A DNA stretch of 32,541 bases from Ignavibacteria bacterium RIFOXYC2_FULL_35_21 (GTDB lineage Bacteria > Bacteroidota > Ignavibacteria > Kapaibacteriales > UBA2268): positions 1 through 32,541 of the forward strand of contig MHAY01000069.1 of NCBI GenBank assembly GCA_001804705.1, read 5' to 3'. The notes under the pieces are model-generated. The model made no database searches. It was not told the origin of the DNA and was given only the letters and a program-made list of their open reading frames with translations. This document shows positions 14,477 to 16,448 of this stretch, piece after piece (position 1 is the stretch's first letter; each line of letters starts with the position of its first letter). The translations under genes and the position numbers were made by a program.

Positions 14477-14501
14477 AATCAAAAAAAAATTTGTTTCACA
14501 G

Positions 14502-14535
14502 AGTATCACTGAATTATGCACAGAGTTTCACAGAG
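14502..14535 (+). repeat. Left inverted-repeat arm flanking the GxxExxY gene
   Basis: This 34-nt arm contains AGTATCACTGA and CACAGAGTTTCACAGAG. It is an imperfect inverted match to 14966-14997, which in reverse complement reads AGCATCACTGAGT then CACAGAGTTTCTCAGAG. Additional TTTCACAGAG copies lie at 14494-14503 and 14569-14578. Confidence 0.75.
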
Positions 14536-14581
14536 AAAAAGGAATAAGTAAAATAGTAATAAAATTGTTTCACAGAGAAAA

Positions 14582-14953
14582 ATGGAAGAGGATAAAATAA
14601 CCGAGAAAATATTAGGATTTGCGTTTCAGATTCATACAGAATTAGGTCCTGGTTTGCTTGAATCTGCTTATGAAGAATGTTTGTTGTATGAATTAACTCG
14701 AAATGGTTTTTCAGTTGAAAGACAAAAAGAAATTCCTCTTGTTTATAAAGAAATTAAACATGAGCATGGTTACAGGGCTGATTTAATAGTTGAAAATAAA
14801 GTTATAATCGAAATAAAATCTATCGAGGCTATACATGATGTTCATGTTGCACAAATGTTAACTTATCTTAGGTTAACAATGTGTCATATTGGATTGCTAA
14901 TAAATTTTAATGTCAAAAGTTTGAAGGATGGTATCAGGAGGTTTATTCTTTAA
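14582..14953 (+). CDS. GxxExxY family protein (PD-(D/E)xK-like small protein)
   Basis: The 123-aa protein has the family signature G(P)GLLESAYEECL near residue 22, giving the GxxExxY name. Later it shows YRADLIVENKVIIEIKSIE (about 66-85), which matches the D...ExK spacing of PD-(D/E)xK nucleases (Asp of RAD, Glu and Lys of EIK), and it ends KSLKDGIRRFIL. Full family length is present. The family is widespread in FCB, planctomycete and cyanobacterial genomes, often as isolated genes; nuclease activity is predicted, not shown here. It sits alone between CACAGAG-rich inverted flanks, unlike its neighbours, which suggests it moves with them. Confidence 0.92.
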   Translation: MEEDKITEKILGFAFQIHTELGPGLLESAYEECLLYELTRNGFSVERQKEIPLVYKEIKHEHGYRADLIVENKVIIEIKSIEAIHDVHVAQMLTYLRLTMCHIGLLINFNVKSLKDGIRRFIL

Positions 14954-14965
14954 TACTCTGAGAAA

Positions 14966-14997
14966 CTCTGAGAAACTCTGTGAGACTCAGTGATGCT
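14966..14997 (-). repeat. Right inverted-repeat arm flanking the GxxExxY gene
   Basis: CTCTGAGAAACTCTGTGAG followed by ACTCAGTGATGCT is the reverse-complement partner of 14502-14535. One further ACTCTGAGAA copy lies just upstream (14955-14964), making short tandem units on this side as well. Confidence 0.75.
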
Positions 14998-15053
14998 ATT
15001 TATTTGGATTATGGTATGAAAATGATTTTATAAATAATATTAAAAGTTGCATT

Positions 15054-16448
15054 ATGAAAAAGTATTTACTATTTCTTCTGTTGGCAGGAATATTGTCATC
15101 CCAGTTCTGGGGCTGTATATCTTACTCAAGGACTGAGACAGATATTTACACTATATCTGAACTTGACACAACAACCCAATATTTAGACAAGAATGCTCCC
15201 GGGAACAGGGATAACGGCATTATCTATTCCTCATCCCGAACAGTTCAATCCGAAAGGATGATGATTCAAAGAGACAGTACAGTTATACGCGAATATCCAA
15301 ACTTTATAAGGCTTGGGCTTTTCGAAAGTATTGGTTTAATAGGGACAAGCGTGGATAGTGCTATTGGTTCGGGAATGTTCGGTATTTTTCCGGATTTAGA
15401 TAATTTAAAAGCTACATATCGTGGAAGCGGCGGTAAAGTGTTCAGCGGTGGACTGTACCGGTTTGGTATAATGGAATTGCGTTTACGTTGGTTTCGGGAT
15501 GCAAAGGATTGGACTTATGGTTTCAGCGGATTTGAGATAATCAGGCCTGATGCCAGAATTGAAAACACTTTGGCAAGCATAGCACCATTCTATCTGAGAA
15601 AAAGGTTTTATTTACGTGAGGAAATTCCATATATAGCAATAACCGGGCACATGGGTTTAGGTTGGTATCCATCCCAATACTTGAATCTTTCTGCTTCTAT
15701 TGATGTAGGCTCAATAGGAGGATTAAACGTAAGGGGATATATCGGCCTTGCTGCAGGAATAAATCTTGCATCAAGCCCTTTCGTTAAGCAGAGTCCGGTG
15801 AATGATTCTAAATCTACAACATCAATTTTTCCGTATGCAGGAATCGGAATATCATTTCTCGATTTCCTGAACAGAGTTCCTGAGACATACAGGGAATGGA
15901 AGGACCACGAACATTCATCGTGGGACATTGGATTGATGCAATTCATATTTATTAATTCGGGAGCAAAATCTCTTTGGATAAGCGACAGCGGCTCTCCAAG
16001 TCTCCTTACGGGATTCATTTTGCGTCTTGCCAATGCTTCTGTGGCTCTGCCTCTTCTCGACTGGAAACTTTATGCCGGAACATCACTTGTAAATTTTGTC
16101 ATACTTGGAGAAAAAGAATGGGGAATGAGTATTTTACCTTTACGTCTTGGCTTCTGGCAGACGGTAATTATGGATGAATTGTCCGTTGAACCTTTCATTG
16201 AGTATAATTACTATCCTTCAAGTTTTGTACACATTGGCGGTAGATTGAACTTGCGTGTAACCGAAGGAATCAATATTGGTTTGGCTGCAGGTTATGCTTC
16301 AGGCTCTACGACAGGCGGCATTGGTAGCGAGATAACTCAAGGTATAGGCTATCCTGACAACTTTACCAGGACCTATATCGGCTTGAGTGTTGGATTATTC
16401 GACAGAATATTTTTCCCCGAACATTTGAGATATTTTAAGAACAAATAA
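15054..16448 (+). CDS. Exported protein of unknown function, probable lipoprotein or outer-membrane protein
   Basis: I do not recognise this 464-aa protein. It begins with a short basic and hydrophobic signal ending SSQFWGC (Cys21), an acceptable but not ideal lipobox, so it is probably a lipoprotein or otherwise exported. The mature part is rich in alternating beta strands with aromatic and Gly residues, for example HMGLGWYPSQYLNLSASIDV, GLAAGINLASSPF, FIEYNYYPSSFVHIGGRLNL and NIGLAAGYASGSTTGGIG, a texture typical of outer-membrane beta barrels. The last stretch ends in a short basic segment. The gene is 9 bp upstream of another exported protein gene, so the two probably form an operon. No catalytic motif was seen. 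Confidence 0.65.
   Translation: MKKYLLFLLLAGILSSQFWGCISYSRTETDIYTISELDTTTQYLDKNAPGNRDNGIIYSSSRTVQSERMMIQRDSTVIREYPNFIRLGLFESIGLIGTSVDSAIGSGMFGIFPDLDNLKATYRGSGGKVFSGGLYRFGIMELRLRWFRDAKDWTYGFSGFEIIRPDARIENTLASIAPFYLRKRFYLREEIPYIAITGHMGLGWYPSQYLNLSASIDVGSIGGLNVRGYIGLAAGINLASSPFVKQSPVNDSKSTTSIFPYAGIGISFLDFLNRVPETYREWKDHEHSSWDIGLMQFIFINSGAKSLWISDSGSPSLLTGFILRLANASVALPLLDWKLYAGTSLVNFVILGEKEWGMSILPLRLGFWQTVIMDELSVEPFIEYNYYPSSFVHIGGRLNLRVTEGINIGLAAGYASGSTTGGIGSEITQGIGYPDNFTRTYIGLSVGLFDRIFFPEHLRYFKNK

Follow-up and report, generated by a model that had tools for sequence, protein, structure and literature searches.

The window, the whole 32,541-nucleotide stretch of DNA analysed here (contig MHAY01000069.1 of Ignavibacteria bacterium RIFOXYC2_FULL_35_21), carries a 372-bp gene, stop included, for a GxxExxY protein of 123 residues (14582-14953, + strand; TIGR04256/PF13366, PD-(D/E)XK fold), confirming the nuclease-like gene of that length described in a first-pass annotation of the sequence. 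Its left neighbour is a gene of the FAA hydrolase family (PF01557; 13817-14476, +) and its right neighbour a 464-aa open reading frame (15054-16448, +), and these two served as the conserved flanks of the empty-site test. Between them the GxxExxY gene is bracketed by arrays of short boxes, counted as CACAGAG with at most one mismatch. The upstream array (14497-14535, +) has boxes at 14497-14503, 14519-14525 and 14529-14535, together with a degenerate box, CACTGAA, that we read from the sequence at 14507-14513 (+), and an additional CACAGAG box lies immediately 5' of the start codon (14571-14577, +). The downstream array is on the opposite strand (14956-14992, -), with boxes at 14956-14962, 14966-14972, 14976-14982 and 14986-14992. 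Box starts are spaced 10-12-10 nt upstream and 10-10-10 nt downstream.

When the 200 nt on either side of the gene were compared, the best local pairing joined 14477-14535 (+) with 14956-15010 (-) at a score of 35, which none of 2000 dinucleotide-preserving shuffles reached (mean 18.0, maximum 29). The bracketing of the gene by CACAGAG inverted repeats is therefore real. The arms had been given as 34 and 32 nt long; inverted arms they are, but exact lengths depend on the chosen stopping point. Likewise, what had been called extra tandem half-copies are extra copies, and they prove to be boxes of tandem arrays with starts about 10 nt apart. A repeat search of the window breaks the same flanking structure up into three short inverted pairs, each 15-23 nt long. 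Terminal inverted repeats, a criterion for MITEs and transposons, are present at the unit. The sole gene between the window arrays is the PF13366 gene, with no HUH (Y1) transposase gene there, and the tetranucleotide GTAG is absent from both strands of 14497-14535 and 14956-14992. About 3 kb upstream of the GxxExxY gene, the window also contains a BsuBI/PstI-type restriction endonuclease gene (PF06616, PF17728; 10608-11549, +).

The GxxExxY protein

The window protein matches the TIGR04256 'GxxExxY protein' profile with 153.1 bits (curated cut-off 35), its only NCBIfam match, TIGR02436 not being matched; it matches PF13366 (PDDEXK_3) with 146.6 bits (cut-off 22). An AlphaFold2 model was obtained with a pLDDT of 93.8 and a pTM of 0.86, and the core fold and the D..ExK motif by which PD-(D/E)XK proteins are recognised are both found in it. 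No variation was seen among 59 sequences at D67, E77, K79, Q91 or Y95. The D..ExK and ExK..QxxxY patterns are both present in all 124 intact proteins scored, and the GxxExxY motif itself in 123 of the 124.

The best structural match of the model is 4ic1 (SSO0001; Z 9.7), which we take to be a Cas4, and the archaeal resolvase Hjc (1gef) is matched at Z 7.3 amid many restriction-type folds. The GxxExxY protein is like Cas4 and Hjc in fold but smaller; a Z of 7-8 may mean no more than that the PD-(D/E)XK core is shared. Its matches to Cas4 profiles are weak (E ~0.01), Foldseek alone returned no match to the model at E ≤ 0.001, and a sequence search of solved structures with the window protein returned none. 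The one pair of orthologues computed (genomes G000 and G002) has a dN/dS of 0.08, at a dS of 1.36 that is near saturation. The protein is probably an active nuclease.

Inverted flanks across the family

The family had been called common and poorly understood. Of 392 genomes sampled from the window's phylum, 192 had a GxxExxY match, and we found no role assigned to these genes in the open-access literature. The window's own genome holds ten matches to the family profile, including pieces of a single broken gene, and in most of the ten the flanks are spelled quite differently. Gene models were drawn from this genome, its relatives and 80 named contig loci, excluding two fragments (L009, L010) and matches below 60 bits. 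Removal of four duplicates or fragments (L231, L231b, L235, L118) from 151 models left 147, and seven more with short or N-containing flanks were set aside, leaving 140 that were scored. For the inverted-arm score, the 200 nt upstream were matched to the 200 nt downstream in reverse complement, and 28 was the lowest score counted.

Inverted arms at or above this threshold were found at 87 of the 140 GxxExxY loci, compared with 0 of 134 control open reading frames from the same loci (median scores 32 and 17, respectively); the controls had at least 150 codons and lay at least 450 nt away, and their flanks may be coding, so fewer repeats are expected in them. With the arms of other GxxExxY loci as the null, 82 of 140 loci lay above the 95% point, and 50 of them also above the 99% point. 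There is no scorable inverted repeat at 53 of the 140. Examples of inverted flanks come, by record title, from Bacteroidota, Ignavibacteria, Planctomycetota, Pyrinomonadaceae, Opitutaceae, Chloroflexota and Anaerolineales. Phage records gave no match to the GxxExxY gene and plasmid records eight, each below 60% identity. On a 24.8-kb plasmid of Bacteroides finegoldii, a GxxExxY gene (L266:3989-4363) lies tightly between radA and a gene for a FAD-dependent protein.

Array spelling and protein subfamily

The spelling of the boxes differs between protein subfamilies. Type A proteins, with LGPGLLE-like motifs, are flanked by arrays of the form TTAACC-RCARAG..CRCARAG, type B proteins (LGNGFQE) by GTCTGAA and then GGATT-like boxes, and type C proteins (LGxGFLE) by ACGGATT-like boxes. 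At least three A-boxes occur at 76 of 96 type A loci, at 0 of 21 type B loci and at 0 of 13 type C loci, the motif and the rules having been chosen after sight of these loci. With the rule fixed, 54 later loci gave A-boxes at 22 of 24 of type A and at none of 26 of type B. Four of the 54 were unclassed, and five, all type A, were identical to earlier loci; without those five the counts are 17 of 19 and 0 of 26 (Fisher p 1.6e-10). A GTCTGAA head on both sides was seen at 13 of the 26 later type B loci and at none of the 24 of type A, and inverted arms scoring at least 28 at 11 and 17 of them, respectively. The difference also holds inside genomes that have both kinds, with A-boxes at 8 of 10 type A loci against 0 of 15 of types B and C. 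Other GxxExxY genes thus have inverted flanks that match their class, which is what became of the suggestion that flanks might be shared across the family.

The two arms of a type A locus resemble each other (likeness 32.6) more than they resemble arms of other type A loci (19.7; n = 99), and the largest of 5000 permutation means was 22.3. Within one Flavobacterium site the likeness of left and right arms was not significant (p 0.084, n = 15). At an orthologous site in two Dyadobacter species (L195 and L203), the arrays are spelled differently (CGCAGAG against CGCWATGG), and the left and right sides differ alike. The matching of spelling to subfamily suggests that the protein and its repeats form one unit, and it gives the GxxExxY family a first concrete substrate hypothesis.

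The boxes are also regularly phased. Same-strand box distances in type A flanks peak at 9-10 nt (143 counts), 21 nt (50) and 31 nt (21), and are scarce at 14-18 nt (14 counts) and 26-28 nt (9). Distances of about 10, 21 and 31 nt equal the helix repeat of DNA and would place the boxes on one face. Helical spacing of this kind points to a protein that contacts the duplex from a single side.

Occupied and empty sites

In the window's genus, represented by four genomes, the gene and its boxes are present in G000 and G002, and boxes only in G001 and G003. Outside the genus, ten genomes have 37-188 nt, with neither gene nor box, between the FAA hydrolase gene and the 464-aa open reading frame, so the empty site to be looked for in relatives does exist. 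The possibility of an inverted insertion in G002 was ruled out, as the element there has the window's orientation. No target-site duplication was recognised at two sites, where even the closest pairs in different states are only ~88-90% identical in their flanks. This survey turned up no gene-bearing unit that had recently been duplicated.

A second site was followed in Flavobacterium. A HemW match was present in 147 genomes of this genus; 90 of these were read and joined with four named loci, and nine of the 94 entries, having no downstream match, were removed, leaving 85 that were scored. The GxxExxY gene is present in 19 of the 85, 12 are empty, with only ~10-26 nt, and 38 have a gene-less stretch of 41-143 nt (size class 27-150 nt); the remaining entries hold other sequences. 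Among the 38 gene-less stretches, A-boxes lie on both strands in 15, another spelling is found in 12 and neither in 11. When one half of each was paired with the other, none of the 38 scored 28 or more and four scored at least 22, and nine of the 15 A-type stretches fold at z ≤ -2. The idea that all gene-less stretches here are palindromic was weakened accordingly, since only 15 of 38 have A-boxes on both strands. Four stretches that appeared to be of zero length are really ~11 nt, with a TTG start.

The Flavobacterium tree (81 rows; 28 of 78 inner branches well supported) requires at least 16 switches, in either direction, between having and lacking the gene. Mean identity at this site is 0.79 for the gene and 0.77 for its neighbour, and the two are correlated (r = 0.66; 136 pairs, 17 loci). 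Since the divergence of the gene follows that of its neighbour, frequent new insertion at this site was rejected, and descent with repeated loss fits better. We take the Flavobacterium gene to be a long-standing resident that was lost many times, or else one that was both gained and lost.

These results support in part the proposal that the window locus is a non-autonomous mobile unit. The finding that would have gone against it, a lack of both further armed loci and empty sites, did not come about. Arrays elsewhere, class-matched flanks and the empty site together support a unit that comes and goes in one piece. That the gene-bearing unit actively moves is not supported: a target-site duplication was not recognised, no gene-bearing duplicate of recent date was found, and the Flavobacterium gene diverges like its neighbour. 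'Non-autonomous' may also be the wrong word, as the arrays may have their partner in the nuclease-like protein itself.

Nine of the 85 Flavobacterium entries seem to carry a GIY-YIG gene (four by relabelling). In some species the site has a gene of ~94 aa between TTTCAGCATCT and AGATGCTGAAA repeats (for example L337:141-425; also L302, L306, L314, L326, L328, L332, L351 and L352), and the one such gene that was profile-tested has a GIY-YIG domain (PF01541).

Gene-less units

Further loci with the same arms were also to be expected, and CACAGAG-type arrays, mostly gene-less, do occur elsewhere in the window's own genome; its relatives also have arrays away from GxxExxY genes. We searched genomes for a pattern of two A-boxes, CRCARAGNNCRCARAG, and found it at least three times in 11 of the 14 genomes that have a type A gene, but in 6 of the 46 that lack one, from a genome list and counts compiled by hand; because the genomes are mutually related, p values from this comparison are optimistic. 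A reversed control pattern gave at most three matches per genome. There are exceptions in both directions: G007 has a type A gene and 0 array matches, and G005, a 97% complete genome, has 23 type A array matches and no match to a GxxExxY or four-helix-bundle gene. One gene-less unit is present twice in G022, a genome with a type A gene, in copies that are 98.5% identical over 133 nt and have different flanks on both sides; both copies lie near contig ends. In G010 (C158:128-808), array matches are spaced ~213 nt apart, a pattern that tandem amplification of a gene-less unit might produce.

Discussion

Our leading explanation, in which we place a little short of even confidence, is that the locus is the gene-bearing form of an interspersed repeat family, and that its protein, small, nuclease-like and of the Cas4/Hjc type, is a putative class-specific partner of the arrays that would bind and cut them. 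The unit would consist of two inverted arrays, each with about four helically phased 7-nt boxes, with the GxxExxY gene between the arrays in some copies and no gene there in others. The protein would bind boxes of its own spelling class, bring the two inverted arrays together in a pair and nick or cut them, and host repair would then copy, delete or homogenise units. We infer the binding, the synapsis and the cutting, and that these drive copying. What we observed are the inverted arrays, their coupling to protein class, the helical phasing, gene-less copies and occupied and empty sites, along with a conserved nuclease motif and a low dN/dS in one pair. We counted against this explanation the lack of a recognised target-site duplication and of a recent gene-bearing duplicate, the vertical-looking Flavobacterium gene, the exceptions G005 and G007, the 53 of 140 loci with no scorable inverted repeat, the arm likeness of p 0.084 at the Flavobacterium site, the make-up of the 38 gene-less Flavobacterium stretches, of which 15 have A-boxes on both strands and none pairs half against half at 28, the position of the G022 copies near contig ends and the near-saturated dS of 1.36.

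The strongest rival is that the phased arrays are operators, binding sites by which the protein itself or another regulator would control genes close by, and that gene-less pairs are scattered operators, the GxxExxY gene lying amid operators of its own, with no movement at all. Helical phasing of the boxes is what such sites would have, and the vertical-looking gene history at the Flavobacterium site also speaks for them. A possible parallel exists in Geobacter metallireducens, whose class 2 sites are three tandem TCTCCGTS[Y] boxes in opposite-strand pairs at variable distance (PMC2700814, 2009). By the published legend their architecture is like that of the arrays here, and their complement resembles the A-box; they are labelled putative global regulator sites, and the part of that source available to us states no link to GxxExxY genes. 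We nevertheless consider operators unlikely, as the arrays lie on both sides of the gene, including 3' of the stop codon, empty and array-only states occur at the same site, a gene-less unit is found in two near-identical copies in different surroundings (G022), and the nuclease motif of the protein is intact.

It is also improbable, in our estimation, that the gene is a passenger on units moved by slippage, homologous recombination or an unrelated transposase, its coupling to spelling reflecting common descent. The gene's history at the Flavobacterium site and the arrays of G005, which occur with no gene, would be expected of a passenger; the coupling, however, is seen in genomes that are unrelated and also when loci within a single genome are compared, array-rich genomes tend to hold a gene of the matching class, and the dN/dS of 0.08 in the sole pair computed also counts against it. 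Least probable by far is an element acting at the RNA level, its arms pairing in a transcript as a terminator, stabiliser or processing signal. Two gene-less units that were picked for folding gave z of -5.6 and -4.7, in keeping with the nine A-type units at z ≤ -2, yet the other 6 of 15 do no better than -2, and box distances of ~10, 21 and 31 nt suit duplex DNA.

On our preferred explanation of an array-bound nuclease, the unit resembles the arrangement of REP sequences and their REPtrons, set on a PD-(D/E)XK protein. REPs are short, mostly intergenic interspersed repeats, often in inverse pairs with a linker (BIMEs), in which a conserved tetranucleotide, mostly GTAG, precedes the palindrome, as described in the portion of the account available to us (PMC8266576). 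In that same portion, as here, one small nuclease-type gene (TnpAREP in the REPtron) is associated with inverse-paired interspersed repeats, and here too the gene lies beside its own inverse-orientation repeats with gene-less inverted pairs elsewhere. The differences are a PD-(D/E)XK protein in place of an HUH transposase and an array of phased 7-nt boxes in place of a GTAG-tagged stem-loop, and cleavage is proposed for the system described here. MITEs share with these units their shortness, the terminal inverted repeats and the dispersed gene-less copies, but differ in that no target-site duplication was recognised here. That GxxExxY proteins are class-specific nucleases recognising helically phased inverted arrays, and thereby spreading and maintaining many interspersed repeats in Bacteroidota and other phyla, REPtron-like and of independent PD-(D/E)XK origin, is a broader possibility that we advance tentatively. 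If true, the REP/TnpAREP principle would have arisen on a second nuclease fold, and a widespread type of short intergenic repeat would be explained.

In the open-access literature we found no paper that links GxxExxY genes with flanking arrays and none on four-helix-bundle genes with repeats; CACAGAG itself returned primer matches. REPs in Flavobacterium are counted in the RepRanger study, whose available text states no gene link (PMC12306157), and TAACTGA repeats are treated in a further source, likewise available in part (PMC4679880).

A comparable arrangement is seen in another protein family, the four-helix-bundle genes of TIGR02436. In a sample of 27 such loci (L236-L262), of which 25 were scored, inverted arrays bracket 16 of the 25 at the same threshold; the array period is 7 nt (24 of 50 flanks), as against 9-10 nt at GxxExxY loci. 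Together with the GIY-YIG gene, which lies in inverted repeats at the Flavobacterium site, these 7-nt arrays offer parallels by which a small protein plus its own inverted array would be a general strategy. The TIGR02436 arrays are spelled, for example, as TCAATGG or GTTATAA repeats, and the window's own genome has 17 TIGR02436 matches.
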